Program-made: the position numbers and the translations under genes | In this document: piece after piece, positions 5,070 to 62,965 of the stretch | How the letters are laid out: every line of letters starts with the position of its first letter | Numbering within the stretch: the first letter of the stretch is position 1 | The notes under the pieces: generated by a model | The model's input: only the letters and a program-made list of their open reading frames with translations | Databases searched by the model: none | Told to the model about the DNA's origin: nothing | Assembly (NCBI RefSeq): GCF_029873635.1 | Contig: NC_080421.1 | Coordinates: 36,994,617 to 37,058,616, forward strand | DNA length: 64,000 nucleotides | Origin: Malania oleifera | Taxonomy: Eukaryota > Streptophyta > Magnoliopsida > Santalales > Ximeniaceae | Reading direction: 5' to 3'

Positions 5070-6715
5070 TAACCAGACCAGGTCAATTAGTACAAGGCTG
5101 ACCCCAACCTTTACAACAATTCTTACCGGGCTAGATTACCGCCCCCTTAGGCCACGCCTAGAAACACTCTGATTTTACAATCAAATGGTACAGAAGTAGT
5201 GCTTTCACGTAAAGCATATTTGTACCCGAATACGCAAAATCATATACACATCAAAAGCATGGATATAGTGTAAGCTCAGTGATTCAAGATTTGTTCAATC
5301 AATACTCAACACAGTATAATCAATATGAAGCTCAAAAGTATTCAAGATAGTATAATCAGTATGATGCTCAAGAGTATTCAATACAAGCAAAGTCTTGGAA
5401 TCTAGACAATGTATTTTAGTAGCACCTCAATATTCCAAGTATACTAAACAGATAATCAAACTAGTTCCAAAATGGTTTTCCTCAATGAAATAAGCACAAT
5501 ACTAGTTTAAAAAAAAAATACTTGCTTGTTTGAAAAATTATTTGCACATCAAAAGCAAAACTATTGGACACTTGCAATGGAATGCAAATATCCTAAGCTT
5601 CCTTGGTTTAATCCCACACAAGATTTATAATGGAGAAATCAGTGGGATTAACCTAAGCTAAGCTCCCAAAAAGATAATCTCAAGCACACACACATGTGGG
5701 AGTATTAGCAAGACACAACAATCACATTAACACAAGAGAAGCTCTTACAATCTCACATTTTATCAAATGGATGCAAGTTTGAGAGTTATTTGGGCAAAAG
5801 GTGATTTTTCAGTAGAGAGAATTTTTGGCTTAATCACTTTTCTAATCTTTACGTAATCATGCAAATGAAGGCATATTTATAGTTAGGTGAAAAATTATAA
5901 CCATTTAGGACAAAATAGGTATTATTAAAAAAGTCCCAAATGATTAAAATCCAATTAGCCCTAGTTAATTTAATTTTAACCGGCTGGGGTTCAGGTGGTT
6001 GAACCTAGGTTCGGTCCCCCGACAAGACTCAGTTTAAAAAGTTTTTGAAATAAGTTCAGTTGCTCGTATTACCCTTCGGCATCTTGAATCAAAGTCAATA
6101 GCAAAGTTATGTAACTTCGGGTGCCCGGTCAAAAGTTCAGTGGCCCAAAACCATGTGTTCGGTCCCCGAGCGTCTTTTTGAACTGAAAGCTTTGGTCGCC
6201 TAAGTTGGTAAACAGTCCCTTTTGAGGGGTTCGGGCACTCGGAGAAGATATGTATATTTAAGGTCGAGTCACCCGAGGGCTGGTCAACATTTTGACTTGT
6301 CAAAGTTCGAGTGCCCGAGGAGTTTTGTACTCCAAGGGTTCGGTCGCCCGAGCCCACTTGACTTGCTTAGGTTTGTTCAATTTTGAGCACAATTATAACA
6401 CACTCATATATTTTATGCTATGTGTGTGAGTGTTGGAGCCTAGGGTCTTACTATAGTCTAATTGAGCTTACGCTATATCATGTATGCATGATGTGCAGGT
6501 AAAAACAAAACATACAAACCACATCCTAGGTTACTATTACAGACCCATATTGTAGACATTAAATTTACAATTACAAATTACAAGTCTTTGGGGTCTTCAT
6601 GTTTCTTCAAGTGTCATTCCTTGGGATATTTATTTGAGCCTACACAAGCACTTGACAATCATCAAATATCAGTATTTGTCATTATCAAAACCGGGTGCGA
6701 CCTATAAGGTCAACA
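5070..6715 (-). mobile_element. 3' LTR of Sirevirus A, left part displaced by G1
   Basis: This segment matches 12382-14044, the other LTR of the same element. It ends GGTCAACA, which on the minus strand is the canonical TGTTGACC start of a Sirevirus LTR. The G1 insertion at 5069/5070 separates it from the rest of the LTR, which lies left of the window. Positions 5985-6360 carry an array of short degenerate palindromes with core TCGCCCGA. The 107-aa ORF at 6034-6357 runs through this array and is not a gene. Confidence 0.88.
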
Positions 6716-7299
6716 TTCTCCCCCTTTTTTATGATGAAAAATACACCATGCAAAAATTGGGTATAGCCTTAAGGGGCTCCCCCTAACAATATGCATCATG
6801 TATTTAACCCAAATTTTTTGCTCTACATCTCCCCCTTTTGGTAACAATAAAAAGGGTCATAGAAGCTAACACTCTAGGTAATGGGTAAGTGTGACATTTA
6901 TACATTATGAATTTTGGAAAGATGTAAAAAAATTTCAGTAGAGTGCCGCTTGAAATTTGAACTTTCCAAAATAAATCATGTATAAGAAGCAACCTGTTTT
7001 AGTTTATATTTCCTAGTAGTTTATCCACAACTACTCAAACAGTTCAGTATGGTCCAACAATTAAGTAAAAGTTTCAATATCATCATTAAGTGAACAAAGG
7101 AGTTGTGCATCACAAGTAATGATCAATATCCATTATGTCCAATATTATCATGCTATAGATATAATACATGTGCACACAATCAATAATCAACTTTCACAAA
7201 GTCTAAAGTAAGAAGACAAGTCAACAATAATATTAGTTGCTAAGACTTAGAAATTTTCATTTGAGAGCTCCCCCTAAATTTATTCTAATTATGAAACAT
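6716..7299 (-). mobile_element. Sirevirus A non-coding 3' region with repeated polypurine tracts
   Basis: Between the end of pol and the 3' LTR there is no coding sequence. On the minus strand it carries repeated AGGGGGAG-type polypurine motifs, seen on the plus strand as CTCCCCCT-type blocks near 6718, 6777, 6828 and 7267. Multiple copies of the polypurine tract upstream of the 3' LTR are a known Sirevirus feature. The tract touching the LTR at 6716-6727 is the likely functional one. Confidence 0.75.
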
Positions 7300-12073: not shown

Positions 12074-12075
12074 AT

Positions 12076-14044
12076 TGTTAACTTTACCGTGATCCCAAGA
12101 GGGGGGGATGAATTGATATTTTTAAAATTTAAGCCCTAGGTCAATCTCCTAATACTGTATATTCACAACCTTATGGTCAATCTAGTGCAAGTAATGTAAA
12201 TGTATACTAGAAAGTAAATGAAACAAATTAATCAAATATGCATGCACCAGAAAGAAGTAAAGTAGAGTCGACACACAGAAATGTTATCGAGGTTCGGCCA
12301 ATTGCCTATGTCCCCGCCTTAGCTAACAAGCACAAGGATTACCACTATAATTTGCTCACTTAAACGGGTGGAGCGGTACCTAACCAAACTAGGTCAATTA
12401 GCACAAGGCTGACCTCAACCTTTACAACAATCCTTACCAAGTTGGATTACCGCCCCCTTAGGTCATGCCTGGAAACACTCAGATTTTACAATCAAATTGT
12501 ATAGAAGTAGTGCTTTCACGTAAAGCAGATTTGTACCCGAATATGCACAATCACATACACATCAAAAGCATGGATATAGTGTAAGCTCGGTGATGCAAGA
12601 TTTGTTCAATCAATACTCAACACAGTATAATCAATATGAAGCTCAAGAATATTCAACATAGTATAATCAGTATAATGCTCAAGAGTATTCAATACAAGCA
12701 AAGTCTTGGAATCTAGACAAAGCATTTCAGTAGCACATCAATATTCCAAGTATACTAAACAGATAATCAAACTAGCTCCAAAATGGTTTTCCTCAATGAA
12801 ATAAGCACAATACTAGTTTAAAAAAAATACTTGCTTGTTTGAAAAATTATTTGCACATCAAAAGCAAAGCTAATGGAAACTTGCTATGGAATGCAAATAT
12901 CCCAAGCTTCCTTGGTTTAATCCCACACAAGATTTATAATGGAGAAATCAATGGGATAAACCTAAGCTAAGCTCCCAAAAAGATAATCTCAAGTACACAC
13001 ACAAGTGGGAGTATTAGCAAGAGACAACAATCACGTTAACACAAGAGAAGCTCTTACAATCTCAGTTTTTGTCAAATGGATGCAAGTTTGAGAGTATTTG
13101 GGCAAAAAGTGATTTTTCAGTAGACAGAATTTTTGGCTTAATCACTTTGCTAATCTTGCCCTAATCATGCAAATGAAGGCATATTTATAGTCAGGTGAAA
13201 AATTATAACCATTCGGGATAAAATGGGTATTATTAAAAAAGTCTCAAATGATTAAAATCCAATTAGACCTAGTTAACCCAGTTTTACCACAATTAATTTA
13301 ATTTTAACAGGCTAGGGTTTGGGTGGCTGAACCTAGGTTCGGTCGCCCGACAAGACTCAATTTAAAAAGTTTTTCAAATAAGTTCGGTCGCCCATATTAC
13401 CCTTCAGCAGCGCAAATCAAAGTCAGTAGCAAAGCTACGTAACTTCGGGTGCCCAATCAAACATCTAGTGGCCCGAAACCATGTGTTCAGTCGCCCGGGG
13501 GTCTTATTGAACTGAAAGCATCGGTCACCTAAGTTGGTGAACAGTCCCTTTCGAGGGGTTCGGACGCTCGGAGAAGATATGTATATTTAAGGTTCGGTCA
13601 CCCGAGGTCTGGTCAACATTTTGACTTGTCAACGTTCGAGCACCCAAGGAGTTTTGTACTCCAAGGGTTTGGTCGCCCGAGCCCTCTTGACTTGCTTAGG
13701 TTTGTTCAATTTTGAGCATAATTATAACACACGCATATATTTTATGCTATGTGTGTGAGTATTGGAGCCTAAGGTCTTGCTATGGTCTAATTGAGCTTAC
13801 GCTATATCCTGTATGCATGATGTGCAGGTAAAAACAAAACACACAAACCACATCCTAGGTTACTATTACAGACCCATATTACAGACATTAAATTTACAAT
13901 TACAAATTACAAGTCTTCGGGGTCTTCATGTTTCTTCTAATGTCATTCCTTGGGATATTTATTTGAGCTTGCACAAGCACTTGACAATCATCAAATATCA
14001 TTATTTGTCATTATCAAAACCGGGTGCAACCTATAAGGTCAACA
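12076..14044 (-). mobile_element. 5' LTR of Sirevirus A (1969 bp)
   Basis: The plus strand reads TGTTAAC to GGTCAACA. It is homologous to 5070-6715 over its right part. Near the primer-site end is the block CCCAAGAGGGGGGG then ATGAATTG, which recurs in all Sirevirus LTRs of the window. Positions 13310-13690 contain the array of near-palindromes with core TCGCCCGA. The next base outside, 14045, is inside the RT of copia D, so A inserted into D. Confidence 0.9.
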
Positions 14045-18066: not shown

Positions 18067-18150
18067 GGTCTTCTTCTTCTTTTTCTTCTTCTTCCTCTTC
18101 GTCTTCCTCTGTGACTTTCCTCCTGGAATAACCCCCCTGTGATCTTATAT
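18067..18150 (-). promoter_or_regulatory. Purine-rich 5' leader of the PHT1 copy
   Basis: Immediately upstream of the ATG the minus strand is a GAAGAA-rich tract of about 45 bases, followed further upstream by CAGGAGGAAAG. Purine-rich leaders are common in plant transporter mRNAs. No intron boundary or TATA box could be fixed with confidence. Confidence 0.4.
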
Positions 18151-18624: not shown

Positions 18625-18628
18625 TCTC

Positions 18629-20524: not shown

Positions 20525-22321
20525 TGTAGATACCCTAATTTTAGCTAGACCCTCCTAAGAAGACCCGATATTGTAAGAATTGACGTTAAGTCCTGGACAA
20601 AATCCCATTTTTAAAAGTAAGACCCTGAATTCCGTTTAAATAATTCAAGACTCGTTAGTGTCAATTTTATATCCCCGCTTGTATAGTCTTAGCATAGTTT
20701 TTCTTAGTTCATAAAGAACTTTCTCAAAATTAAACCCTTTGAGTCCTAAGTTCTTAAAATTGAGTCCTGATACAGTTGTCTTAGTTGTTTTTTTTTAAGT
20801 TCCTTAATTTAGTCTTTCAGTTCTGCTCACTGGCTAAAATGTGTGAGTTTTTCTAAACTCGGGTTCCTTTTAGGAGTCATCATAATCAAGTTCCTCAAAT
20901 CTTCAGATTTAGTTTCTTCTTTTGAGTCCTACAATTTTAATCAAGTATGTATGAATTTCTTTTGAATTTTTAGTTTAAGTCCGAAAAAGTCTTTCAAAAT
21001 TATAAGGTTGAGTCCCGTAATTTCAAAATCGAGTTTGTTTAAGTCTTAAGGTTATACTTTCTGATGAGTCACTAAAATATATGATTTTAGACCGTCATTT
21101 ACCTTTTTTAATCCTCATTTTAATATGTATTTACCCAAAGTTGTCATTGTTCAGAGTTATGCAAGGTTTGTTTGTCTTTTTAGGAAAAATAGGTCAAAAC
21201 CATAGAGTTAGGCATCACAAGAAGCCAAGGAAGATTTGGAGGATTCAAAGCTTGAATTCAAACATTCATCCAAGCTCTAAAAGCTTCAGATCATAAATAG
21301 ACAAGAAGATGACACTCGACCATGTGGCGTGACCAGCAAACCACAGGGGCGACTTAGTCTTCCACTACAAACTCCAATGTTCAGACTAAGATCAAAATGT
21401 TGTAAGGTTCAACCAAATGCGCGACCAAGTGACACCCTGGAGCGACCACGTCGAGATACTGAGATAGAACTAAAATTCAGAAATACCGAGAGTCTTGACA
21501 AAGTGTTCAACCAAGAGACCATCCGGGGCGACTGTGTCTAGATACTGAGATTTCCTAAAGATTGAGATACTTCAATTCTCGACGATCAACTCGACCATCA
21601 GGACCCTAAGGCGTGACAAAGTCGAAGTCATTAAAGATTTGAATCCCTGACTGCCCACGAGATCCAATTAGGGCGCGCACAAGAATGCTAGAGGAGCGAC
21701 TTGGTCGATAGTGACGATCTGCTACGCGAGATTTGCTACAAACTTTCCTAACTTGTAAAACAACCCTTGTAAACCCTAGAGCCTATAAGTATTCACTACG
21801 AACACAAGCTCTAGGTTCCTCTTTGGCCTCTCTTAGGTTAGTAACAAACCTAGGAAGTTATTAAGAGCCAAGTTAGAATAGGGGTAGAGTAGTTTCGGTT
21901 CGTGTATAGTGTGTTCGACAGCCTGTGACAGCCGGCGGCAGTCATACAACAGTCGTGTATATTAGATGATCTCCTCTTGTACTTTTGGCGCTAGTGACAT
22001 ACATTTTGAATGCTAAAGGGATGATTTTTTACTTATGCTTTCATTTACTATTTTCAATTTACTGCTTCCCATTTACTTGTTGTGTGTTTGATGAAAGATT
22101 ACAGATAAAGATAAGCACTGCTACGTATCAGTCAGAGGGAAATAGTTGGCCACGGAACCGCAGAGGTGTTCGTTATCATTAAGACAGGGTATACTCCAGT
22201 TCCCAACTATACTCCGGATGGTTGGTGCACCTTTGCTACCTTGTGCCCTCGATCGCCCCTCTCCCGCTTTGGCCTGCTCGGGTTAGTACTTCTATGAAAT
22301 CTGGATGAGCGTAGTTAGAAG
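20525..22321 (+). mobile_element. Tat/Ogre-like LTR, left part
   Basis: It starts TGTAGATACCCTAATTTT right after the 5-bp flank TCACT (20520-20524). Its continuation across Sirevirus B is at 35134-38824, which ends GTCGCGACA followed by CCACT. The combined length, about 5.5 kb, and these ends match Tat/Ogre LTRs. No second LTR or internal domain is present, so it is best read as a solo LTR. Positions 21300-21730 contain repeated GGGGCGACTTGGTCG-like phrases. The ORFs at 21081, 21329 and 21985 are not genes. Confidence 0.65.
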
Positions 22322-25300
22322 TGAAAATAGGATATAGTTCCTAGGAGTAGGGTGAATTGGGTTTTAAGAAATTTATGTTCTCTTTTTTTTTAAAGTTCTT
22401 GTATTATAATAATAAAAAAAACCCAAACACAATCACAGAGTACGTGTAAAATAATCAATCCAAATCAACCACAATCAATACAAAATAACCAAGCACTTGA
22501 TTCTTGTGACAATAGCCCTGTAGTAATATGCAATGCTTGTTGGATTTGTATAAGCCCTGTGTTGAAATTCATGATCACACTTCTTCCCAAGGTTCGATTT
22601 TTAAATAAACCTTTGGTTTAATAAGTTTAGGATGGTCAACCAACATAGTCCCTTTCAATTTTAGCAATCAATGTTAATTAAACCAAAACAAACTATCTTC
22701 CAATCTATTTAATAACCAAACACTCAGAATTCAGAAATTATAAAGCATCCACGCAATTTGTAAAATATGTTGAAAAGTAAAGAGTAGGGAAGAGATAGAG
22801 GAACACAAGGTTTTACGAGATTCAACTTATACCCAGCTTACGTCCTCCCTTTTGGAAAACCACCAAAGGATTCATTAGGTCAGTTCTTTTGCCAGGCGGA
22901 ACAACACCATTTACAACACTCCTTCGATTTGGCTAGAGCCCGCCTTTCCAAACGATATCCCCTCACTTGGCACAATGATCCAACAACCTTGAATTGTCTA
23001 GAAACAATAAACAAGTAGAGAAAATTTTGTGTACTAGAGACACTCTTACAACAAAGCTGGTTAGTGTAATATTTAGCACAAATATACTTCAATGTAAATC
23101 AATATAAAGAGATTGAAGCTCAATTTAATTTAGATCACCAAATTTATCTTCCGTGTATTGAAATATTTAGACTTTGAAGACTCAAATTCGGAGTTGGGAT
23201 CAGCAGTAATTATATAATGATCGTAGGATGAGCGCAAAAGAGATTGAGAGCTTTGAGAGAACTTTGTTTGCTAGAAAATTTCTTGGCGTAAAAACTCATT
23301 GTAGTTAGGGTTATTTATAGATGTTTAAAAGATAACTCCTTGCCCCCCAAGTTTGCTTGGACTAAACATCAAGTTTTCAAAACGAGTAGAGCCCAAGAAA
23401 TCTGAAATTATGAATAGCTTCCCAAGAATGGGGGGGGGGGGTGGGGGTGAATTGACTTTTAAAAATTTCTTTTAATTCCTTTTTAGAATTCTTAAACTTA
23501 TTTTATTTCTTTTAACCAATTTGTGACTGATTTGTTTAATTTGTTAAGCACTCAAAAACTTAGTTTCTTTACTTAATCCTTAACTATACAAACATCCAAT
23601 CATTCAATCAAACCAATCAACTATAATTAGAAAGCAAACAAACAAGTCAATACACAACACTTATGCAATATAAAAACTCAAAATGGTTGTTTGTTGATAA
23701 TAGCTAAATTTGAACCAAGCCCTGTAGTGAATGAGAATTTATGTTTGTTGATGTAAAGTCCTATATAAATGAATTCAATCACTCTTTCCAAATATTTAGA
23801 ACTCAAATAAACTCTTGGTAAATTTATCTTTGGGATGTTAACCAAGAAACGTACTTTCGTATGGTTCCGCAAGATATGGTGTAACCAACGTACTCCCTTT
23901 CGATTTCCGCAACCCAAATCAAAATTAAACCTTAAGTTTGTTTGATTTCCAAATATACGTAGTTTATATGATTTTCAAATTTAAACCATCCACGCAATTT
24001 AAATATGCACTGAAAATAAAGAATAGGGAAAGAGAGAGTGAGACAGGGATTTTTACGAGGTGGAACAAAACCTGATTACAAGCGATACCCCACGCTCAAG
24101 AAATCCTTCACTTAGGCTAGAGTCGGCCTCTCCAAACGATGTCCCCTTGTTCGGTCACTCCTTTAGGCTAGAGCCTGCCTCTCTAAGCAATATCCTCTTG
24201 CTTAGCCAACGATCCAAATAATATTGGAACGTCAAAGAACTACAAGAAAACAAGATATAATTTGCGTACAAGTATACTCTCTTAAAGAGCAAGTTAGTAC
24301 AATTTCAGAACTATATACTTCAATGTAAAATATCAATAGGAAGTAGAATGAAACTCAAGTGTAGAATTCACCAATATCCTTCTTAGATGAGGATTAATAG
24401 TAGGAATTCAAGGAGGAAGGATTAGCTCTTCAGAATATCTCAGCAAAAGAGTTTTGCAATAAGTGAGCAAGATAACTTGTAAGAACAAGAGTGCTTTCAG
24501 CTTCTCAAAACAGAATTTTCAATTCTTGGATGTATTTTGATTTGCAAAACCATGTATATATAGGCTTTCAAACTTTTTTCCATGTTGCAAAAGTTTCCTT
24601 CAAGTGTTTCCCAAAATTTTAAAAAGTTTGGAGCTCAAACGACTATTTTTTAAAATATTAGATTTTAAAAAATTTTCCCATTGAACAGTGTTTAGATGTC
24701 TGAAGGTTCGAGTTCAGTCATCTAAAGTTCCTGAAACCCCTTTAAAAATGTACTGGACACAGGGTTAGATGTTTGAAGAGAGGGTTCAGATGTCTGAGGT
24801 GTAGGGTTCAGATGTCTGAAGTGCCGGGTTCAGATGTTTGAACAGCTACTGCCTCTTTCAATTCTGTCTCAAAAATCTTTAGACGTCTGAAGTGACGAGT
24901 TCAAACATCTGAGGTGGTTCTGTGTGCTGTTCAGACAGCTGAAGTCCCTCCCGTGAACAGTGTTCAGATGTCTGACAGTAGTGACCCCACTTCAGTGGTT
25001 TGGCCATAACTTTTTTTGTATAACTCCAAATTAGGTGTTCTTGGTGTCAAAAGAAAGATAAGAGAAAATACTAAAATGTTAATGTTGAACACGTTTTAAA
25101 ATAATTAGTTTTTGATAGAGAAAAATTTACCTCAATGCGGATATATAAAAATTGACAGCATTTGGAAAAACTCTTTTTGGTGCTTTTCATTCCAAAAATG
25201 ATTCTAACTTTTTTAAAATAATTTTTTACCTTATAAAAATATTTTCCAGGTATTTTAAAAAGTATCTAGGTCTAAAAAGTTAAACTAAGAGCTTCAAAAT

Positions 25301-26407
25301 ATTTCAAACGATATTTTAAACATTAAAGCACTTACATGAGACTTCTAAAATATTAACATTCTAAGTTCTTGAGTCTTCATGCTTTGTCCTTGGATTGAGT
25401 CCATCTTTTCTTCAAACTTCCATATTCTTTGAGCTTTCTCACTTTGCCTTTCTTTTGCTCTTTGGACTTTAATTTGTATTGGCTTTCAACAACTCATTCA
25501 TGTCCTCATATTCTTCAAGGTTTCATATATCATCTTTAAATCCATGCTTTGACTCATTTAAGCTTCATTTGATCCTTGTGAGCACTTTCACCTTACTTTT
25601 TCATATATGAGCCCTGAAATAACATTACTCACACAAATATATTATATTCCATTTGTTTGTTAGCATCAAAATAAGATAACAAGATTTTAAGCCTTGTAAG
25701 GCCAACAAAATCCATTTAAAAAATTTTCCCGTTGAGTTTTTAAAAATTCTATTCGAGTGGCAGTCGCCTGCCATGACTTGGTAGTTGCTTGTCATAGTGA
25801 AAACTAAACAACCAGAAGACTGGCAGTCACCTACCAAGACACAGGCAATCGCCTGACTTGACCACCTAGGCACCTGAGAGGGCTCAGGCAGTCGCTTGGG
25901 ACCCTACTGCCTCCTAAGTTAATTCCTTTAATTTTTGCAGTCTACTGCCTATATTGGGAAGTCGTCTGGCTCTCAGAAAATCTCTTCTTTCACTTTGAAA
26001 ACTTTCTTCCTTTCTTGAGACTTTTATCATTTTGATTTAAAATGTATTTTAAGGTCTTTTAAAAATTTGTTTCTTAGATTCTTTTTTTTTATAAGAGCGT
26101 CAATTCAATTTATATTGAGGTTTACATGAAGTACTTACAAGGGGACATCCTTAAAACTCGAAACTTCTTATTTTCATGTAAATCCTTGCTTTTCCATGAT
26201 CATATATCATCTTTGAGCTTTCAATCAATTTTCATTCTTCAACCTTTTATAAAGTATGTCCATCATGAGCTTTATTGACCTTTGAGTTTGGCTTTGAAAT
26301 ACTTGAGCTTTGTCTGCTTCCTAAAATAGTTTAACTTAAAAACCATATCAAAGTTATCTTGATTTGTTCTCATCAAAATAAGAATTGTAAGTCTTGTTAG
26401 GCCAAAA
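22322..26407 (-). mobile_element. 3' LTR of Sirevirus B, interrupted by solo LTR C
   Basis: The LTR starts TGAAAATAGG after the target duplication AGAAG (22317-22321) and ends GCCAAAA, where the partner LTR has GCCAACA. The parts 22322-23402 and 25713-26407 align with 33341-35128. The interruption at 23403-25707 is a separate solo LTR. An array of near-palindromes with core GTCGCCTG lies at 25755-25975. The small minus ORFs at 22880, 23678 and 25625 are LTR sequence. Confidence 0.88.
23403..25707 (-). mobile_element. Solo Sirevirus-type LTR C (2305 bp)
   Basis: TGAAATTATG to GGCCAACA, flanked by a perfect 5-bp duplication AAATC (23398-23402 and 25708-25712). The empty site is visible in the partner LTR of element B near 34430. 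Just inside the left end is a run of 13 G, then T, then 5 G, followed by TGAATTGAC, the same block as in the other Sirevirus LTRs. Positions 24690-25000 contain about ten copies of a motif like TTCAGATGTCTGAA. No internal domain remains, consistent with LTR-LTR recombination. Confidence 0.9.
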
Positions 26408-26858
26408 ATCTCCCCCTTTTTGATGGTGACAAATCTAGAGCAAAAAGGAGAAAATACTCCTTAAAGTACTCCCCTTTTACAATAGTCATGGCTCCCCCTT
26501 TCAATAACCATGAATGAAAAATGTTTTTAAGCATAAAGTACATTCATATTTCTCAAGTATCAAGCATCAAACATATGCATTAAGTATCATCAAGTATCAA
26601 AACATAATCAAGCATAAAAACATATGCATCAAGTATGAAAACATCAAGTAGTCAATCATAGTCAATCATATGTGTCTTTTTGCTCTCTCTCAAATACTCT
26701 CCCCCTTTGGACATCAATCAAAAAGGAAAAGAGGGTGATCCATCATAAAAAATAGTTAATTTTTGAACTACAAAGTACTTAAGGTCTTCCATAATATAAT
26801 ACAATAAAAAAAATTGGACGATGAAATACATAGAAATACTAATACATAAGATAAGATA
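26408..26858 (-). mobile_element. Sirevirus B non-coding 3' region with polypurine repeats
   Basis: No gene. On the plus strand CTCCCCCT-type blocks occur near 26410, 26469, 26491 and 26698, the minus-strand polypurine tract in several copies upstream of the 3' LTR. Between them are CAAGTATCAAGCAT-like repeats (about 26555-26640). Confidence 0.7.
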
Positions 26859-28265
26859 TCAAAGCAACACAAGCACGTCACTCTGAATCATCCTTGGATC
26901 CACTCCCTTCATCTTCTTCTTCTTATTTTTCAAAATTTTTAGCAGATGCATCATCACTAGATGGAACTGAACTGATGTCCATTGGTGTTGTACCTTTAGA
27001 AGAGCTAGCCAAATGCTTCTCAATTTTATCAACCCGCTGAGCAAGAGTGGAGTTGTGAGTTTCCACAGTGGAAACCTTCTCCTGAAGTGTACCAATACCA
27101 GATTGCATCCCATGGCCGAAGTTCATATAGTGAGTGAAAAATGGTAGAAACCAGGAGGGAGTATCTAGGTATGTCTGTGCTGAAGTAGCTGGCATAGAAG
27201 GTTGAGGTCGAGGCTCAGATGTAAGGTGTCAACGACCCTTGTGAAACCAGACTTGAGTGGTTTTCTTATAACTCATGTGCTAAAGAGTTGTGTTAGAAAA
27301 TACTTCGTAATGGATTTTTCTAATGAAATTGAAAGATGGTGTGAGGATGTTAAAATTTGCAAACACCATATTCAATATCCCAACATATGGTAGAATAATG
27401 TAAGAAGCGTTAACTTTCATATTAATCCATTTGATGAGAAGACTAGAAAGATCCAGCTTTTTCCCTTTCAAAATACACCACATGATGAAACAATCTAGAA
27501 AGGAAATATGATCATGTGATTCGGATCGAGGTAAGATATTATAAGTAATCAATTTATGCAAAATTATGGCTTGAAGGTTTCAGCTGTTTATAGATCGGTG
27601 GATTTCCAAGTGGGCGTATCAGTCATTACAAGAGGTAAGAATGCCTCTGGGGTGAATCCTTGTGCCATTATCCATTATTTTTCAACAATTTAAACTTCAA
27701 AATCTCTCGGTTTAACACGAAGGATTTTTCCCAGAGATATGGGAGTGAGGTGAATACTCTGCCTAAGAGGTTCATTTTTAACCCATTTTCTTGTTTCTCC
27801 ATGTTTGCATAAAAGATCCTTATCAAGTTTGGATAATACCCTTTGGCTTGATAGGTGATAAATCTTTCCAATCCAATTTCTTTAAAAAGCTCTAAGATTT
27901 CAGGAAAATTAGAATTGAAAGGCAACATCGATTACTTTGCCTATAATTGGTTCTGATGAAGCGATTTGATTTCGATAAATATTTTTGGCTTAAGGAGTTA
28001 CTAACCATTTCTCTACTTCATCATTGTTGGTGCATGTGGAGGAGGAAGCACCCTTGTTTGCAACCAAATTTGTTCGTGGTATGTTTGCTTTAAGATTTGA
28101 ATATGAGAACCCTAGAAATTTGGTTAGGGTGAATGTAGGTTTTGAGTTTGGATTATGATTTTGGATGGATTTGGAGGGGAAATAAGCTTGAATAAGAGTA
28201 GGAATGAAAGGATTTCGAGTAAGAGGAGAAGTGGCAGACGCCTGAGGGCTGTTAAAATGAGACAT
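26859..28265 (-). pseudogene. Env-like ORF remnant of Sirevirus B
   Basis: Four minus-strand frame pieces lie between pol and the 3' LTR, exactly where some Sireviruses carry an extra env-like ORF. The order is 27990-28265 (Ser/Pro/Thr-rich N-terminus), 27668-27928 (with KEIGLERFITYQAKGYYPN and IRIFYANME), 27280-27561, and 26923-27195 (a heptad-like LQEKVSTVETHNSTLAQRV segment). The YYPNLIRIFYANM block resembles the plant-transposon protein domain I recall as PF20167. I see no clear signal peptide or membrane anchor, so a true envelope role is unsupported. The pieces are in different frames, so the ORF is dead. Confidence 0.55.
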
Positions 28266-28289
28266 AATATGGTTTTAAACCCTTACCCA

Positions 28290-28405
28290 CCGTGAAGCAG
28301 TCGCCTGCACGAAGAGGTAGGCGCCTGGCAACTCAAAAGACACCAAGTCAATAGCATGGTAGTCGCCTATCACCTAGGTGGTAGTCGCCTGCCAAGTAGA
28401 TTTAA
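28290..28405. repeat. Internal copy of the B-type palindrome array
   Basis: Between pol and the env-like ORF, the sequence repeats GCAGTCGCCTGC, TAGGCGCCTGGC, GTAGTCGCCTATC and GTAGTCGCCTGCC. These are the same motifs as in the LTRs of element B (25755-25975 and 34476-34690). A poly(A) run of 17 follows at 28403. This is the only internal occurrence in the window. Confidence 0.7.
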
Positions 28406-39908: not shown

Positions 39909-41238
39909 AGGGGTGGCAAAATGGGTTAACGGACTGGGTTCGGGCGGGTCAAAAACAGGTTTGGGTTAAATGAGTTCGAGATCAGGTTGACTCGTTTATT
40001 AATGGGTGACTACTATGTAAATTCAAACCCATCTGTTTAATAAACGGATCACCAATTTAAAAATATTATAATTTATTTATTTTAAAAAATTTTTAAATGA
40101 CAATTTTTTATTTTATTTTAAAAAGCACTCCATTTTTTTTCTTTAAATAGGTCATAAACGGGTCACTCGCTGACCCGAACCTGCCTAACCCATTTAATAA
40201 ACGGGTCATGTAATAACCTGAACCTAGAAAATATAAAATAAATAAATAAAAGGAAAAGGATAAAAAAATAAAGAGAATAGAAACTTAAAAAGGGCATCAA
40301 GCAGGGACTCATCGATGAATTTGTTTTCCTTGTCAATGAACGTCCTTCTTGGCCTTGTCGACGAATACATGTGTCTTGTCAACGAGGAATTACCATGAGC
40401 AGGGAAAATTCAGGTTTTTAACCGCTTCATCAATGAACACAATGTTCTCATCGACGAATGTTCTTCTTGACTTCGTCAACGAACCTTTTAGACTTGTTGA
40501 CGAAGGCCAGATTATAAAGTGACCCTAAATCATTTTCTTCTGCAAAAATATCTCTCCTCTCGTTTTCTCTCTCTAGGGTTTCATTCTCCTGCCTTCTTTC
40601 TTTGAATCTGACCCGGATTTAGCCCAATTCGACGATCAGAAACCACTAAGAGGTTCCCAGGGTGTTTTTCTCCAAGTTAACCGGAGTAGAAACTTGATTT
40701 GGAGTTCTTGGGTACCACTCCAAAACTAGGGTAAGTAAGATATTTTTTTAATATTAAATTAATTATTGGGAATGTGTGGGCCTAGGAGATGTTAAATGAT
40801 AAATATTTTGGGGTTAAACTAATTAAATTAGGGAGTTTCGGAATACAAGGTTAGGTTTCCCATTCGTTTTACGTTGAACTTTGAGGATCAGGTAAGGGAA
40901 AATAAAATTATACCAGGTTTTTATTTAAATTTGAATCGGTTATTTTCAAGTATAGGAACCATATAATTATAGTATGATTTTCCAAACGATTCAGCCAATT
41001 TAAAATAATGATTTGGTTATAATTTTTAATTTGGAAAAAACTGTGTGGCATGAGAATAATCCTTTAAAAGTAATTGATTAAGTTTACTATTTTCTTGAGA
41101 ATACTGGCTGCTTGCAAAATCTGATCAGTTGTGTATACTGTCTGGTTATGAGTACTGCTTGGCTGTGAACATTGCTTGATAGTGAATATGGGTTGATTGT
41201 AAATACTATCTATTGTGAGTGTAAATGTGCAATGAAAT

Positions 41239-46625: not shown

Positions 46626-48876
46626 TGTTGACCTTATAAGTCATATTCCTATTTTGATTATGACAAATACTCAGATATTTAATGTCTGCCAAGTTGATGT
46701 GCAGGTATTCTAATTGGCAAATCATAGTGATAGCACAAAGAGGAACTGAAGCTGAAGACCCAATTTACGATTATATTGTATTTCATTTCTATGCAAAGGG
46801 TCTGCAATAGTAAATAGGGATTGGTTTATAATAAGCTCACACACATCATATGCATGATCTAATAGGTAAGCTCAAACCAACCGTAAACTAAAAATGACCT
46901 TAGAAAGACCTTAGGGAATACCCTTCGATCGATCGACACCGGATTTTTTTGGTGTCTTCAAAAAGACCTAAAAAGGACCTTAGAACACTCACCATTGCAC
47001 TTGTATGTGTTAGACATTTGAATAAGGTGATTGTGGAATAAAAAAGGATCGAACTGCACAAGTTATGCACTTTCGGTCGACTGAATACCCTTGAAGTCAA
47101 TAGTTTGACTTCCTGGTCGACCGAGCGAAATTTTTATTACACCAACCTGGTCGACCGGGGGTCCTCAGGAGTTGTCCCAATGGTTTGGTCGACCGACCAA
47201 CTTAGTTCATTCTAGCCCTAGTCTACTGAACCGCGCTGATTTTGAAAAATGACCTCAGATATGCCATTCTGGTCGGCCGACCAGTTAGTTCATTTTCACC
47301 CCGATCGACCAAATCTTGTTGATTTGGAAAAAATCACCCTGGACATACTTGTCTGGTTGACTGACCTAGGCAGTTCATTTCTAGCCCGGTCGACCGAACC
47401 ATATGAGCTTAGGTCAACTGAAAGTATTCTGGTCCACCAAAGCTCTCGGTTTGCCCTGCATTTTTACCATGGTTAAATATTTTTAAACAAGGTTAATTAG
47501 GGTTAAAATGATTTTCAATAATACTAATAATACCCTACATGTCCCAACGGCTATAATTCTTCCAACATCTATATATAACCCATCATTTTCAAATATTAGA
47601 AGAGGATTAGCAATCTTGATTAGGAGGAATCCTTGAAAATCCCAAAATCCATACTACTCATTTTCTCACCCCATTCACTCATACTTACCTTCTACTATTG
47701 CCTAAACTCTTTGTAAGTTGATTGAGTGTTTGTTTGGAAAGGTATGCTCTCCCTGTTCTTCTTGGTTGATACGATTTTATTGAGAGACAAACCTAAGTGT
47801 TCTTAGGGGACTTTGTTAATAAGTCTCTCCTAAGAAGACTTATATTAAACTTCCGAGTATTGCACATTCATTGCAATATCTTGGGAAGTTTGCATTTTTT
47901 TTTTGAATTGCAAAAACTCTTTCAAAACATTTTCAAATATCTATTGCGCTCTATCTTGAAAAATATTTGAAGAGACATTTTTTTATGTGATATTGATCTT
48001 TGTGGCAATATTCATTGAGTTATCTATTTTGCTGCATACAAAGATTAAATCTCTCTTAGCAAACCAAACATATACACTACTTGAGCATCATGCGATTGAG
48101 AAAATCTGCTGATTGTTTGGATGATATCTTTGTGTGAACACGTTGATTGAATATCTTAAGATACAAAGATTGCTTGTTGACACTCTCACGCACTAATTAC
48201 ATTGATAGCAAATATTTTATTGAGAGTTGACATATTGTAAACCACAATGAGCTTACTTATTATATCTTATTGGTGGTGTATGCGATTGCACATAATTGGG
48301 TACACCTCTGATTTACTTGAAAGCATAATCACTGTACCTTTTCATTGATGGAGCAAATCTGATGTATTTCCAAGCATGGGCCTGAAGAAGGAGAGTAGCC
48401 CTTTGAAATAGTACTGGATTGGCTTAGACCCGGTTAAAAAAGCTAGGTATGCCATCCTGGTAAGGCGTGTTGGTTAAAGTTAGCCCCTTTAATTCACCTG
48501 GTTGTAAAGGTTGAGGTCAGCCCTGTGCTAATTGACCTGATTGTAATAGGTGCCGTTCTACCCTTTAAGTGAGCCTTTAGTGGAATCCTCGGACTTGTGA
48601 GCTAGAGGCAGGGATGCAGGCACAGTTGGCCGAACCCCAATAACATATCGTGTGTTTGTTTATATTTCCGCACACTATAAATACCACACGTGTATGTTAT
48701 GGTGTGAATAATGCATATGATTTAAATTTTCGTACATTATGTCTACTTGTGCATTTGGGATTGTATAGAAAGACCCTAGGTAGCTAAATCATATTGATTT
48801 CTGATTTAACCTAGGAGAAAAGTTTAAAATTCCAATTCACCCCCCCCCCCCTCTTGAGAATACACCAATTCTAACA
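46626..48876 (+). mobile_element. 5' LTR of gag-only Sirevirus E (2251 bp)
   Basis: TGTTGACCTTATAAGTC to ATTCTAACA, followed by a primer site. The first 400 bp are repeated at 60731-61134. Near the right end is AATTCA, a run of about 12 C, then CTCTTGAGAA, the Sirevirus end block. Positions 46925-47460 carry about ten GGTCGACCGA-like near-palindromes. The ORFs at 46522, 46900 and 47249 are LTR sequence. Confidence 0.9.
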
Positions 48877-52239: not shown

Positions 52240-54279
52240 TGTTAGCTTTGGTATATTCCCAAGAAGGGGGGGGGGGGATGAATTAGGTATTTAAAAATTA
52301 ATCCTCTAGGTTTAGCTAATATAGCAGTATTTCACAACCTAGGGTCTTCCTATATACACACACCCAAATGCGCAGATAATATGCAAAAATTAAATCATTC
52401 GCTATAACATACACGTGCTGCAATGTAAAGTGCGGAAAGTATAAAGTATATACACGATATGTTATCGGGGTTCAGCCAACTGTGCCTACGTCCCCGCCTC
52501 TAGCTCGCAAGTCCGAGGATTCCACTAAAGGCTTACTTAAAGGGTGGAGCCGCACCGATTACAACCAAGTCAATTCAAGGGGCTGACCTTAATAGACACG
52601 CCTTAACAGGATGACACACCTAGCTTTCCTAACCGGGTCTAAGCCAATCTGAGACTATTCAAAAGGACTAGTCTCCCTTTTCAGGCCCACGCCTGGAATA
52701 CAACCAATGTGTATAAAATTTGCGTACACGGAAATATGCTTCTCACATTAAGCAGATATGTACTACAATATGCACATGTAATAATCAATCCACACCAAAC
52801 ACGTAGGAACTATAAGCACAATGGTGTATATGTGCAATCAACAATCAATGTTATGTCTATAAACGATCAAGCACAAGAATGTTCTAACAAGCTATTTCTT
52901 TGAAAATAGATATAACAAATCTCAATACTAGATTAGGGTTTCAAAGATGCTGATCAAGTATTCAAACTAACTCAAAATATTTTCTTTTAGTGAAATAAGA
53001 ACAAGAGTAGTTTGAAGTATATAGCTTGCAAAAATTATTTGTCACACAAAAATAAAGCTATAGGAATCTTCACAATGGCAATACAAAGATGCTTAAGCTA
53101 ACGAGATTTTCCCAACACTAGATTTATCATATAAAAATATGTGGGAAAACTCTTGCTTAACTCCCCAAAATCAATGACAATCAATCAAGCAAAATAGTGG
53201 GAGTATCTAGCAATATCAAGCAATAAATAAACACTCACAAAGTAAGATTTCTCAAGGGAATGAAGGTGTTTGAGTGTTATAGGGTTGGAATGAATAACTA
53301 GGCTTTAGGAAATTGAGAGAATTTTTGGCTAATCCAATTTGCTAATCCCCACTAATTTTTGCAAATGAACCCCTATATATAGAGAATGGGTAAATTATGA
53401 CCGTTGGGGGACACATAGGGTATTCTTAAATTTGTTAAAAAAGTTTAGCAAAAATTAACACAGTTTAACCCTTTAACCTCGGTAAAAATATTAATCAACC
53501 CGAAAGAATTCAGGTGGCTGAACTTAAGTTCAGTCGCCCCAATAGACTCATCTTAAAAATTCATATAAAATAGTTTGGGTGCCCGAATTGTCATTCACTT
53601 GGCTGAACAAAAGTCAGAGAGTTAAGTCTGAGGTTCGGGTGCCCGGTCATATGTTCGGTAGCCCGAACTCATATGTTTGGTCACTCGGGGCTTAATTTGA
53701 ACTAAGTCATTTGGTAGCCCGAGTTGGTGAAAAGTCCTTTTCAGGTGGTCTGGGCACCCGAGGGCAATGTGTTCATTCTAGTTCGGTAGCCTGAACTAAG
53801 GTCAAACTGTTGACTTCTCAATAGTTCGAGTGCCTAAGGTGATTTGTTCACCTGAGGTTCGGTCGCCCGACCTCACCCATTTTATGTCTATTAAGTTCAT
53901 TTTCATTTCAGTTAATTCCCTTTATATGTTAAGTGATTATAGGACTTTGTGCACAATGTGTAGGGACCTAGGGTCTTTTCAGTTACGCCTAAAAACCTGG
54001 CGTCAGTCGACCATCCTAAGGTCAATCTATGGCATTTTTGAACTTATAGAAACCTATATGCATGACATGCAAAGTTTATTACAGACCATATCCTAATAAT
54101 TACAAACCCAAATAATATAAATTACAACAATAAAATAGATCTTCTGGGTCTTCAGTCTTCAAGTAATCACGTGCTCTCAAATGATCAAGCTAATATGAAC
54201 CTGCACACAAACTTGATAGCCATCAAATACAACAAGTATTTGTCATTATCAAAATTGGGTATGACCTATCAGGTCAACA
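52240..54279 (-). mobile_element. 3' LTR of gag-only Sirevirus H (2040 bp)
   Basis: TGTTAGCTTTGG to GGTCAACA, preceded by ATGGT (52235-52239); the same ATGGT follows the other LTR at 59801. A run of about 12 G with ATGAATTAGG lies near the start. Positions 53510-53880 contain about ten near-palindromes with core TCGCCCGA/TAGCCCGA. The ORFs at 52709 and 53830 are LTR sequence. Confidence 0.9.
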
Positions 54280-58603: not shown

Positions 58604-58642
58604 CTCGATCTTTTAGCAAAAACGTTTAGGTCAATGCCACGA

Positions 58643-58655: not shown

Positions 58656-58657
58656 AT

Positions 58658-59800
58658 TATTAGCTTTGGTGTATTCCCAAGAGGGGGGTGAATTGGGTAT
58701 TTAAAAATTAATCCTCCGGGTTTAGCTAATCTAGTTGTATTTCACAACTTAGGGTCTTCCTATATACACACACCCAAATGCGTAGATAATATGCGAAAAT
58801 TAAATCATTCGCTATAACATACATGTGCTGAAATGTAAAGTGCAGAACGTATAAAGTACACGCATGATATGTTATCGGGGTTTGGCTAATCTTATTTTCT
58901 AATCACCACTAATTTTTGAACATGAACCCCTATATAAAGAGAATGGGTAAATTTGTTAAAAAAGTTTAGCAAAAATTTACCCCATTTAACCCTTTAACGT
59001 CGGTAAAAATATTAATCAACCGAAGGAATTTGAGTGTCTGAACTTAAGTTCGGTCGCCCGAATAGACTCATCTTGAAAATTCATATAAAATAGTTTAGGT
59101 GCCCGAATTGTCATTTGGTTGGCTGAACAAAAGTCAGAGAGTTAAGTCCAAGGTTCGGGTGCCCGGTCATATGTTCGGTAGCCCAAACTCGTATGTTCGG
59201 TCGCCCGGGGCTTAATTTGAACTAAATCGTTCGGTAGCCCGAGTTGATGAAAAGTCCTTTTTAGGTGGTCCAGGAGCCCGAGGGCAATGCGTTCATTCTG
59301 GTTTGGCAGCTTGAACCAAGGTCAAACTGTTGACTTCTCAACAGTTCAAGCGCCTGAGGTGATTTGTTCACGTGGGGTTCGGTCGCCCAACCTCACTCAT
59401 TTTATGCCTATTAAGTTCATTTTCATTTCAATTAATTCCCATGATATGTTAAGTGATTATGGGGACTTTATGCACAATGTGTAGGGACCTAGGGTCTTTT
59501 CAATTACGCCTAAAAACCTAGCGTCGATCGACCACCCTAAGGTCAATCTATGGCATTTCTGAGCTTACAGAAGCCTATATGCATGACATGCCGAGATTAT
59601 TACAGACCATACCCTAATTATTACATACCCAAATAATATAAATTACAACAATAAAATATATCTTATGGGTTTTCAATCTTCAAGTTTTCACGTTCCCTCA
59701 AATGATCAAACTAATATGAACCTGCACACAAACTTGATAATCATCAAATACAACAAGTATTTGTCATTATCAAAACCGAGTATGACCTATCAGGTCAACA
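58658..59800 (-). mobile_element. 5' LTR of element H with an internal deletion
   Basis: It matches 52240-54279 at both ends but is only 1143 bp. After GTTATCGGGGTTTGG near 58885 it jumps to sequence matching about 53330, a loss of about 850 bp. TGG/GGCTAAT-type microhomology is visible at the join. It ends GGTCAACA, then ATGGT. The TCGCCCGA near-palindrome array (59030-59400) is retained. Confidence 0.88.
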
Positions 59801-59960
59801 ATGGTTTTTGTTTTCTGGTTATTTTTAGTATGTGCTTTTTTGACAAACTAGAAAATTTGTTGCTTGCTTGCATGAGTTTTTAAATTAAAGTTTCTGTTTC
59901 TGCAAGCACCCCCAGTACCATTTTTCAAATATCAAAGGGGGATATATATTTATTATATAC

Positions 59961-59996
<36 letters not shown>

Positions 59997-60730
59997 ATTT
60001 ATAAAAGCAAGAATTGAACTTATATAGAATATATTTTATGTCTTGCTTATGTGCTTAAATGCTTTCATGACTTGTGCTATCTTTGTTTTAAAATTTTAAG
60101 TCATGAAGATTTTTTTTAAAAAAATTTACAAAGAATGCTGCATAACTGGTTCATGGATCTTACATGAAAATGCATGCAAACTTGTTAGATCATTCTTATG
60201 CTCAAACCTACTATTTTGGTATCATATGTCATGTGCCCTTTAACTCAAATCTTCCACGAGTCTTATGATATATTTCATTGGCAATGGTTTGTGTATATTT
60301 TTTGTTTAACTACGTTTTCATGTCACTTGAATATTTTAATGACCAGTTATACAATTTGTGTGCTTAAATTACTGAAGTTATCTTTGTCATTCATTTTGCA
60401 TTGTATGACTATTATATTTCTTGAATGACTAAAAGTTATACTTCTATTTTACATTTTTTAGAAAACTGGACTAATTAAGTAGTTGTAGATATATTGTCAA
60501 TATATTACTCAACAGGTCATTTCTATACAGACATGTTTTTGGGAAATGTCCTATTTTCTAATGGCGTGCTGTCAAATTTTCTTAAAAATCTCCCAAACCA
60601 TATCATGTATATGAATAATATTTTCCTCTTATTTGCCTATATATACTTAAATGTTTATCTAGGGTCTTTTTGCTGTTGCTAAAAGAGGGAGAAGTAGGCA
60701 AGTATTTGTCATCATCAAAAAGGGGGAGAT
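59801..60730 (+). mobile_element. Element E internal region, part right of H
   Basis: It resumes E after the ATGGT duplication. Non-coding; it contains a (TA)n tract (about 59967-59994) and polypurine motifs at 59935, 60686 and finally AAAAAGGGGGAGAT touching the 3' LTR at 60731. The ORFs at 60198 and 60494 show no domain. Confidence 0.8.
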
Positions 60731-61134
60731 TGTTGACCTTATAGGTCATATCCCTATTTTGATTATGACAAATACTCAGGTATTTAATGTATGCCGAGTT
60801 GATGTGCAGGTTTTCTAATTAGCAGATCATAGTGATAGCACAAAGAGGAACTGAAGCTAAAGACCCAATTTACGATTGTATTGTATTTCATTTCTATGCA
60901 AAGGGTCTGTAATAGTAAATAGGGATTGGTTTGTAATAAGCACACACACATCATATGCATGATCTAATAGGTAACCTCAAACCAACCGTAAACTAAAAAT
61001 GACCTTAGAAAGATTTTAGGGAATACCTTTCGGTCGACCGACACCAGATTTTTTCGATGTCTTCAAAAAGACCTAGAAAGGACCTTAGGACACTCACCAT
61101 TGCACTTGTATGTGTTAGGCACTTGAATAGGGTG
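60731..61134 (+). mobile_element. 3' LTR of element E, cut by gypsy G2
   Basis: TGTTGACCTTATAGGTC onwards matches 46626-47030 and breaks off after CTTGAATAGGGTG, where the gypsy LTR begins. The remainder lies beyond the window. Confidence 0.9.
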
Positions 61135-62965
61135 TGTAAGAACCTAAAACGTGATAAGTGGTTTTAAATATTTAAAGAGACGGGCATTTTGGTAAAAGAG
61201 CAGGCCTCATCGACAAAGCTAGATTTCGTCGACGAAGTCTTTGTCCTTCTCGTCAATGAAATTCAGAGACTCGTCGACTAGGAGAAGCCGAGGAGTTTCG
61301 AGAAACTGGGAATAACAAGATTCGTCGACGAATCTATCATCTTGTCGACGAGAGGACTATAGGGCCTCATCGACGAGGGCACCATTTCTTCGACAAGTTT
61401 GCCCTGGTCAAAGGTGTTATAAATAGAATTTTCATTACTTCTTCACTAAGAAACTTCAAATATCTCTCTCTCTATCTCTAGAACTCTCCCTACACTTCCT
61501 CTCTCTAGATTTCTTCGCTAATCGTCTTTAGAATCGTGAATCTGAAGTTACCACGAGGATCATGGAAGGATTCTCTACAAGTTCTACGGATTGGAATCCC
61601 GTTTCGGAGATTTTCGGGCTTTGGCGTAAAATTGAGGTAAGGCTCGGTTTTCAATTATGATCCTGTAGTTTTTTAGGAAACACTCTTGTGAGTATATTCT
61701 ATACTGTGATTTATAGGTTTTGAAACTCGGTTCGCTGTTTAAGGACCTTGGAGTTTGCGATTTGCTATTCAGGGAAAAGGTAAGGGGAATTGTGTTTATA
61801 TTGGTTATTTTTGAAATCGGACTCAGTAGAACTATGGTTCACGATCTTGTGTGTGTTTTGGCTACTCATTTGGGGGGATCTAATGGGGAAAACTATGGGT
61901 TTTTCATGATTACAGTTTTGGGAAAAAGGGGGCGACGGGCTGCATCCCTGGTTTTGTTGAAAACCAAACGTATATGTTGATTTATATTGTGCTATAGGGA
62001 TGGTTATTCCGTGACTTGTTTAAACTGTATGTGTTTGGAAAATTGTGATTTTAGATTACCAAATGGGTGTGGTTTGTTTGGTTATATGAGCATGCATGTG
62101 TTGTATCTTGGTGAAATAGGAATAGGGTTCCAAATTGTTCCAATTTTGAAAATTTGGCTTTTACCGAAGAGTGCGCAATACCACTAGATTGGCCAGCTTA
62201 CGAGCTGAAGGGTGTACGAACACCAGATCTACACCGGTTCAATGCTGATGCTATGCGAGGTTACCGGCAGCACCGACGTTTGCCGAAGGGTGTAAAATAT
62301 CACCAAACTGCCGGTATTTGCCGAAGGGTGTGAAATATCACCAGACTGCCGGTGTTTGCTGAAGGGTGTGAAATACCACCAGACAGTTCAGCTTCAAGCT
62401 GAAAGGTGTGACTACACCAGATTATATTGCTTGTTTTGTGAAAAATACTGGAATTGGTTTTGATTGTTTTGACTATTGAACTATGCATGTTAGTATGTCA
62501 TGATAACACTTATATGCCACACACCGATATAACCTGTGTTCCTCCTTACTAAAAGGTGTCTCACCCCTGCTGCACGTACATTTTTACAGGTCATTCAAGT
62601 AATCGAAACTAGCGTCTTGGTGTAGGGAGTGTAGTGGCCGATGTACTATGGTTATTGGGTAAGTGCTAGGACTATATTTTTAGTGGGTTGCCATTTTAAG
62701 GTGTGTTGTGGCACCAGTTTGTATGTTTTGATAGAGCCTGTTCTACTCTTGTATAGACTCTGCTATGGTACTGCATATGTATATATATAATGCCCTTTTT
62801 CTGCTGCGTATATGATTGTGTTTGGATGTGTTTAGGGTGCCTGGGAACCCCACAGGGTCGGACCCTCATCCTTTGTACTGTATCTTTGGATGTTTTATCA
62901 GATACAGGGATAGGTTAGATTAGATTTTCACCCTTGGGTCCCATTTCGGGGTTTGGGGTGTGACA
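61135..62965 (+). mobile_element. 5' LTR of gypsy element G2 (1831 bp)
   Basis: TGTAAGAACCTAAAACG to GGGGTGTGACA, followed by a primer site. It is related in style to the solo LTR at 40209. Positions 61200-61400 carry CGTCGACGA-like near-palindromes, and 62166-62420 a tandem repeat of about 38 bp. The ORFs at 61720 and 61987 are LTR sequence. Confidence 0.88.
62166..62420 (+). repeat. About 38-bp tandem repeat with GGTG/CACC hairpins
   Basis: Units start GAAGGGTGT at 62207, 62285, 62323 and 62361, with weaker copies at 62166 and 62401. Each contains GGTGT or GGTG followed 4-8 bases later by ACACC or CACC. CCGGTGTTTGCC joins the middle units. Confidence 0.8.

Follow-up and report, generated by a model that had tools for sequence, protein, structure and literature searches.

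Palindrome arrays in long terminal repeats of Malania oleifera: candidate promoter modules in Sirevirus-type and Ty3/gypsy retrotransposons

Why should several retrotransposon families in one nest each carry, within the long terminal repeat (LTR), a series of short near-palindromes with a similar layout? The question is raised by a 64,000-nucleotide stretch of the Malania oleifera genome (NC_080421.1, positions 36,994,617 to 37,058,616; hereafter the window), in which LTR retrotransposons lie nested; the assembly comprises 1.494 Gb in 510 contigs. We confirmed that the arrays of these near-palindromes, here called dyads, are real and, as palindrome clusters, belong with the strongest that the window contains. 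Most simply, the arrays of the copia-type families were inherited among Sirevirus-like elements; the part contributed by a Ty3/gypsy family looks new. Judging from layout and sequence, it is rather probable that the arrays act as control modules close to the promoter, in the U3 (unique 3′) region, and that their dyads are read by a dimeric DNA-binding protein.

Palindrome arrays in the window and in other copies

The arrays and their TATA-like boxes, named by LTR family, are as follows.

5990..6352, minus strand: A1 array of CGG-N4-CCG dyads, in an LTR of about 5066-6716
about 5876-5881, minus strand: A1 TATA-like box, downstream of the array in sense
13318..13681, minus strand: A2 array, family A, in an LTR of about 12377-14045
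21348..21709, plus strand: Tat-like array of about five CGAC-N3-GTCG dyads with additional CGACCA half-sites, ahead of CCTATAAGTATT
24691..24976, minus strand: C array of TTCAGAC[G/A]TCTGAA dyads, in an apparent solo LTR (about 23402-25701) inserted in B1
about 24557-24562, minus strand: C TATA-like box
25759..25970, minus strand: B1 array, in an LTR (22324-26408) interrupted by C
34479..34691, minus strand: B2 array of [G]CAG-N4-CTG[C] dyads, in an LTR of 33343-35129
about 34335-34340, minus strand: B2 TATA-like box
40308..40504, plus strand: gy1 array of YTCGTCGACGAR dyads, with TATAAA at 40513
46924..47443, plus strand: E1 array of YGGTCGACCR dyads, LTR start about 46626, last site placed by eye
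about 47570, plus strand: E1 TATA-like box
53509..53871, minus strand: H1 array of TTCGG-N4-CCGAA dyads with hairpin-forming spacers
59029..59391, minus strand: H2 array, family H
61206..61397, plus strand: gy2 array of eight YTCGTCGACGAR-type dyads, in a Ty3/gypsy LTR from about 61135
61418..61423, plus strand: gy2 TATAAA box, 20-21 bp past the final dyad

A blind scan made without the previously proposed motifs moved over 400-bp segments at steps of 100 bp and recorded in each the gapped palindromic word (4-bp arms, loop of 0 to 5, at most one mismatch) that most exceeded the expectation from local base composition. The best score, given as -log10 P, fell on the array of family C (13.6; TCAGN4CTGA nine times), followed by E (10.6; GGTCGACC seven times), the two H arrays (9.2 and 8.9), the gypsy array at 61200 (8.1; TCGTN2ACGA six times), A1 (7.5; a word found five times), B2 (7.3; GCAGN4CTGC four times), the Tat-like array (6.9; CGACN3GTCG five times), the gypsy array at 40300 (6.7; five times), and B1 (6.4, through a different word); A2 (13310-13690) was absent from the 45 segments listed. 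The 320 dinucleotide shuffles, with a 99% point of 4.6 and a maximum of 5.3, stayed below every claimed array that was scored, which bears out a first-pass annotation that had reported arrays of near-palindromes in these LTRs. Against a stricter control of random non-palindromic word pairs (1,600 segment tests; 99% point 6.9, maximum 13.2), the scores of A, B, the Tat-like array, and gy1 lay near the control, and genome copies were therefore needed for these weaker arrays. Comparable scores also occurred outside the claimed arrays at 41201 (11.3), 28201 (8.4, a linker of family B), 57901 (7.1), and 2701 (6.8). By a looser motif count, A, H, B, C, E, gy1, and gy2 exceeded all 200 mononucleotide shuffles; the Tat-like array and the B linker cluster each reached a count of 6, which is also the shuffle maximum.

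Copies elsewhere in the genome were located by flanking LTR sequence and not by the array. Each search yielded 2,158 to 8,861 candidates, of which about the top 40 were scored, so the copies are those most like the window's and not a random sample. The stretches read comprised 14 of E, 15 of C, 14 of B, 20 of gy1, and 18 H-like, together with 30 each of gy2 and the Tat-like family (window copy included in both). With window copies included, at least four dyads were present in 13/15 copies of E, 15/16 of C, 15/16 of B, 21/21 of gy1, and 29/30 of gy2 (50/51 gypsy copies together), and, by a loose criterion, in 29/30 Tat-like copies. Arrays were thus found in 122 of 128 copies over six families, and the expectation that they are kept in other family members held. 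The size of 8 to 12 dyads given earlier suits the medians per copy of E (11), C (9), A (9.5), and H (8) and is too high for B (6), gy1 (6), and gy2 (7.5). The Tat-like array, with about five good dyads plus CGACCA half-sites, is the weakest of the set. In a Tat-like stretch (L070) searched for gypsy or Tat coding domains, six pieces had no Pfam match at E 0.001, and four of these had none at E 5.

Individual E copies also differ in array content. Two (L094 and L104) have additional dyad-plus-spacer units, which points to array growth unit by unit. Two others (L093 and L096), whose arrays differ, were kept out of the E alignment and are within the 15 E copies counted.

A dyad array in a Ty3/gypsy family

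The gypsy assignment comes from gy2, whose adjoining stretch (L069) encodes RVP_2, RVT_1, and RT_RNaseH in that order, preceded by a gag piece in the window.

63646..63981, plus strand: gy2 gag piece (Retrotrans_gag), with protease, reverse transcriptase, and RNase H next, in the adjoining stretch

Although gy1 is known from LTR stretches alone, it is taken as a relative of gy2 because both have the same layout of eight slots (spacings 21/25/21/51/21/25/21 in gy1 and 19/24/21/51/20/25/20 in gy2) and because one gy1 copy (L079) resembles gy2 at the polypurine tract and LTR edge, with up to 87% identity over 53 bp (E 2e-11). The array spacers of the two are barely recognizable as related, with 11 matches at E of at most 1 in 630 pairs, the best at 8e-4 and the next at 0.12. 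The distance to the promoter is likewise regular. For gy1 the gap between the last dyad and TATAAA is 9 bp in 18/21 copies (one at 30, two without), and for gy2 it is 20-21 bp in 27/30 (two at 41, one without). Six kilobases downstream of the window's gy2 copy, behind a polypurine tract, another gy2 LTR (L010, C5:37061959) lacks about five array slots.

Genome-wide, exact neighboring TCGTCGACGA pairs at 18-26 bp numbered 20,207, compared with 0 for the same pattern read backwards, a control that contains no CpG. Among the 83 distinct pairs listed, 58 were spaced 19-21 bp and 25 were spaced 24-26 bp, with none at 18, 22, or 23, and their spacers comprised 70 distinct sequences with a mean identity of 44-52% on the better strand. 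The spacing is kept while the letters of the spacer vary freely.

The first-pass annotation had held that copia and gypsy lineages share the layout and not the core. At least one true Ty3/gypsy family does have the layout. The copia cores reduce to a single scaffold (below), and the denial of a shared core was too strong, given that GGTCGACC of E and CGTCGACG of gypsy have GTCGAC in common, perhaps by chance. Tentatively, a very large Ty3/gypsy group may possess its own promoter array of YTCGTCGACGAR dyads under a strict 20/24-bp rule, either independent of Sireviruses or swapped in as a module; we would not put this above a possibility. If true, two superfamilies would have converged on one promoter design, perhaps using the same host dimeric factor through GTCGAC. 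The gypsy array may have arisen by convergence, by module exchange, or by deep inheritance. Such arrays in plant gypsy LTRs were not described among the open-license literature matches listed, nor in the excerpts of PMC11302176, PMC3485330, and PMC3601003 that were checked for palindromes.

Two tandem repeats lie near these promoters. Downstream of gy1, about seven units of a 36-bp repeat (41225-41479) are rich in TACGTAG and GTGGGCCAC palindromes and score near the top of the blind scan. A 38-bp repeat of 2.8 copies (62278-62384) sits between promoter and gag in gy2.

Copia-type families and the Sirevirus repeated motif

For the copia types, the earlier view of unrelated families does not hold. 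A and B have pol sequence in common (67.6% over 3,056 bp), and A and H have LTR sequence in common (66% over 974 bp). Similarity is 71-75% among A, E, and H at the start of the LTR and 71-82% between C and B in pieces of it. Open reading frames of A and B encode copia-type reverse transcriptase (RVT_2, E 5e-49 and 9e-62); the single H piece searched gave no RVT_2 match. The LTRs begin TGTTG(A/G)CC. The polypurine tract AAAGGGGGAG precedes the 3' LTR in exact copies (two in A, three in B), and H and E have one exact copy each plus near copies. At the 5' LTR edge, TATCAGAGCC, which we take to be the Met-tRNA type primer site, is matched with at most one mismatch in B and H and was not found at the edge assumed for A. 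A, B, E, and H appear to carry Sirevirus-type features and C resembles B, with reverse transcriptase seen for A and B only. The LTR of copy E2 in the window is cut at about 61135 by the gypsy insertion.

60719..60738, plus strand: E2 Sirevirus-type polypurine tract and LTR start, AAAGGGGGAG..TGTTGACC
28233..28393, minus strand: second cluster of B, five dyads lying beyond the LTR and flanked by the RNase H region and a putative env-like region

Excerpts of PMC2829016 (Bousios 2010) describe a repeated motif (RM) in Sireviruses, namely palindromic boxes with a CGG-CCG core, rich in CpG, that lie together in the LTR on the upstream side of the TATA box. By this description an RM-bearing element has at least 8 boxes, the first of them 200-400 bp inside the LTR; members with an env gene have further boxes ahead of it, and Tnd-1 is the single named exception to the core. 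The arrays described here are alike in place, in CpG richness, in core (A, H, and E), and in the extra B cluster before a possibly env-like region, and the ideal dyad of E, CGGTCGACCG, equals the Vitis box in Table 3 of that paper. Using the LTR limits adopted here, the boxes start at 364 bp in A, 298 or 446 in E, 410 in H, 438 in B, and 725 in C, and the last dyad of the window's Sirevirus LTRs lies about 90-150 bp before TATA. A, H, and E fit the CGG-CCG core with at least 8 boxes; C has enough boxes with a CAG-CTG core, and B has the CAG-CTG core with a median of 6 per LTR copy. The cores of all five families fit one scaffold, C[G/A]G-N4-C[C/T]G, and a transition at each of its two CpGs would turn CGG..CCG into the CAG..CTG of B and C. 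Given the shared Sirevirus features and the boxes already described, the copia part was already known, with two core variants added. The arrays depart from the RM boxes of those excerpts, in which copia elements were compared, in the CAG-CTG cores of B and C, in the compensatory spacer hairpins of H-like copies (below), and in the similar array of a gypsy family.

The second B cluster contradicts the claim that arrays are always within the LTR. It precedes two Transposase_32 matches (E 6e-4 and 4e-7) that fall below the Pfam cut-off, and we read the region that follows, from these sub-threshold matches, as possibly env-like.

One of the excluded E copies, L096 (C2:29554100-29554675), is an LTR with an E-type start and one E-type dyad, followed by A/H-type boxes and TATA region. 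This apparent chimera suggests that promoter modules may have been exchanged between Sirevirus families. For wheat RLG_Quinta, excerpts of PMC11302176 propose that the QuinCent motif originated in a Copia LTR, a precedent for a gypsy LTR gaining a piece found in a copia LTR; in those excerpts, however, QuinCent is a 162-bp motif tied to nucleosome placing, and a dyad array is not described. By analogy, the two cases together suggest that promoter modules can be exchanged.

How the arrays may be read

If a dimeric protein does read these modules, the dyads, which at about 10-12 bp would each accommodate a two-fold symmetric homodimer and which stand at preferred distances just before the TATA box, would be bound on double-stranded DNA, and this reading would drive or protect transcription while the arrays grew and shrank by dyad-plus-spacer units. 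In Sireviruses the module would be the known repeated-motif region, with a hairpin layer added by the spacers of H-like copies. The place of the arrays, their copy number and recurrence in genome copies, the gypsy spacing, a constraint on A/T positions of the dyads, and decay by CpG transitions are observed and support such a module.

In columns with an A/T majority, dyads were 96.1% identical (n = 137) and spacers 87.9% (n = 395; pooled p = 4e-13), an excess seen in E, C, gy1, and gy2 separately (each p < 0.02) and not in B (p = 0.67). C/G columns were about as conserved in dyads as in spacers and, in gy1 and B, less so. As the first-pass annotation had supposed of C-to-T and G-to-A differences, decay at CpG accounts for most gypsy changes: with sites called at no more than two mismatches and every C and G of the dyad lying in a CpG, 326/375 departures were CpG transitions, similar for C>T and G>A (68/74 and 82/102). 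The gypsy copies are thus apparently decaying under CpG methylation on both strands. In E, the ideal dyad was perfect in 9/143 sites. Strand excesses in E (C>T 149/79) and C (G>A 112/52) were read as fixed unit variants, and strand-biased decay was rejected. Covariation inside gypsy dyads was also set aside: the outer Y..R pair was associated in gy2 (p = 1e-11), mostly between slots, with p = 0.15 in gy1. Observed/expected CpG was 0.71-1.35 in the A, H, E, and gypsy arrays, 0.31 in C, 0.57 in B, and 1.10 in one array-free control stretch.

Several points weigh against a protein-read array. Helical phasing is not clean, with p = 6.5e-6 at 10.5 bp over 40 spacings, a better fit at 10 and a nearly equal one at 13-14; gypsy alone gives p = 0.085, spacings of 24-25, 38-40, and 45 are off, and slots are not independent. 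Half-site changes in single dyads were not linked (in B slightly negatively, p = 0.02), and the outer pair was associated only in gy2. Dyad columns were picked by motif resemblance, a mild bias in the conservation test. Contig 1, within its first 3 Mb, supplied all 83 listed gypsy pairs, and the spacing rule could be partly inherited instead of selected. Finally, the spacer hairpins of H-like copies and their compensatory changes are not explained by dyad binding alone. Strict helical phasing as such, suggested by the many spacings near 21, 32-34, and 51, was rejected because other periods fit equally and the off-phase spacings do not conform.

The spacer hairpins of H-like copies (e.g., AGGTGA..TCACCT, replaced in other copies by AGGAGT..ACTCCT or GCGTTT..AAACGC) are among the reasons to consider a role as RNA. 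In the H-like set (20 rows), a structure folded from one window copy had 58 cells changed on both sides with pairing kept, compared with 30.2 in shuffles (0/500 reaching 58) and at most 27 in slid controls, a count that relatedness of the copies inflates; two of five measures were unremarkable (double-change pairs, 22/500 shuffles; pair types, 59/500). Two spacer hairpins, chosen by eye from the same alignment that was tested, kept Watson-Crick pairing in 282/669 differing cases (slid controls, at most 24/240), and dyad stems kept pairing in 98/670 versus 30/376 in the control. Compensation of transversion by transversion (columns 57/67 and 59/65) is hard to obtain through CpG decay. G-T (43) and A-C (48) mismatches were about equal in the dyad stems, so wobble on the sense strand is not favored. 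Local folding energy was low for H1 (z -4.9), H2 (-2.8), and E (-3.0); sense values for A, B, C, gypsy, and Tat-like arrays ran from 0.7 to -2.1, with several array-free controls at -1.9. The gypsy values (-0.1 and -1.7) were inside the control range, and gy2 antisense was fairly low (-3.1), which counts against the protein-read array. In the E, C, B, gy1, gy2, and Tat-like sets, copies were too alike or stems too few for compensatory analysis, and an Rfam scan of the window gave no match.

Could the 3' LTR transcript therefore fold and feed small-RNA silencing or some step of the element's RNA life? The H-like excess over shuffled and slid controls and the low energies of H1, H2, and E speak for it, as does the excess of small RNAs at maize Sirevirus palindromes (Bousios 2016, as cited in excerpts of PMC10760457 and PMC5311732). 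Those palindromes likewise form clusters of predicted structure in the LTR cis-region; there small RNAs were mapped, whereas here sequence is compared and gypsy dyads are loop-free. Against it stand the two unstriking measures, kinship among the copies, hairpins picked by eye, folding in A, B, C, gypsy, and Tat-like arrays that is not clearly under the array-free controls, and dyads that are loop-free in gypsy and without sense-strand wobble preference in H-like copies. As a general account an RNA role is unlikely, and the gypsy arrays are read as DNA and not RNA because their dyads are loop-free, strand bias is lacking, and sense folding resembles controls. Alternatively, hairpin strand-switching during reverse transcription might perfect palindromes and slippage multiply units with no selection at all; one templated step could yield the compensatory H-like stems, and unit gain or loss is visible in L094, L104, and L010. 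This process predicts neither a fixed place before TATA nor two discrete spacings over 70 spacers nor the added A/T conservation of dyads, and we find it distinctly improbable. For the H-like spacer hairpins themselves, either selection on structure or template-guided mutation would fit, and one or the other is likely in addition to dyad binding.

It is more improbable still that the arrays are anti-silencing targets, recognized by a protein of the element or of the host that strips off methylation, the way VANC acts on VANDAL motifs. They resemble those targets in that short motifs particular to each family recur many times in non-coding DNA and, in A, H, E, and gypsy, are rich in CpG; according to excerpts of PMC5735166 and PMC10398659, VANC targets are short motif arrays that differ between relatives and gain and lose repeats. 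VANDALs, however, are DNA transposons with their own VANC protein, and those excerpts do not describe dyads before a TATA box; here the dyads bear scars of CpG transition, C and B are low in CpG, and one array-free control stretch is as high as 1.10. Chance or base composition can hardly be the cause: several scores near the random-partner control and, for the Tat-like array and the B linker, loose counts at shuffle level would allow it, but dinucleotide shuffles do not match the arrays, nearly all copies retain them, and the gypsy pair has no counterpart in the reversed pattern. Integration into palindromes, the subject of excerpts of PMC6911290, was rejected because it leaves arrays at a fixed place before TATA without explanation.

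Repeated cis elements that drive LTR transcription from U3 are familiar from the LTR enhancer repeats of Tnt1 and Tto1, which are few in copy number, different in sequence, and part of a different copia lineage from the Sireviruses. Symmetry of Tnt1 box I is mentioned in PMC2829016, as far as its excerpts go. If the gypsy dyads do form a real binding array, they would offer an exact and testable grammar, a 12-bp dyad repeated about 20 or 24 bp apart and ending 9 or 20-21 bp from TATA. They would also account for promoter drive in some of a plant genome's commonest elements and mark more than 20,000 places at which nearby genes could be affected. The question of why plant retrotransposons use palindrome arrays would thereby be opened to direct promoter tests.

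Two further features of the window lie apart from the arrays. Positions 1-5069 contain two 2-kb direct repeats (95.8% identical) separated by 3,074 bp, and an inverted relative lies at 44678-46554; among the segments listed by the blind scan, positions 1-5069 showed AT-rich palindromic words only. On the minus strand, two adjoining long open reading frames (16510-18144), presumably related to a Pht1-kind phosphate transporter, occupy the most GC-rich part of the window.

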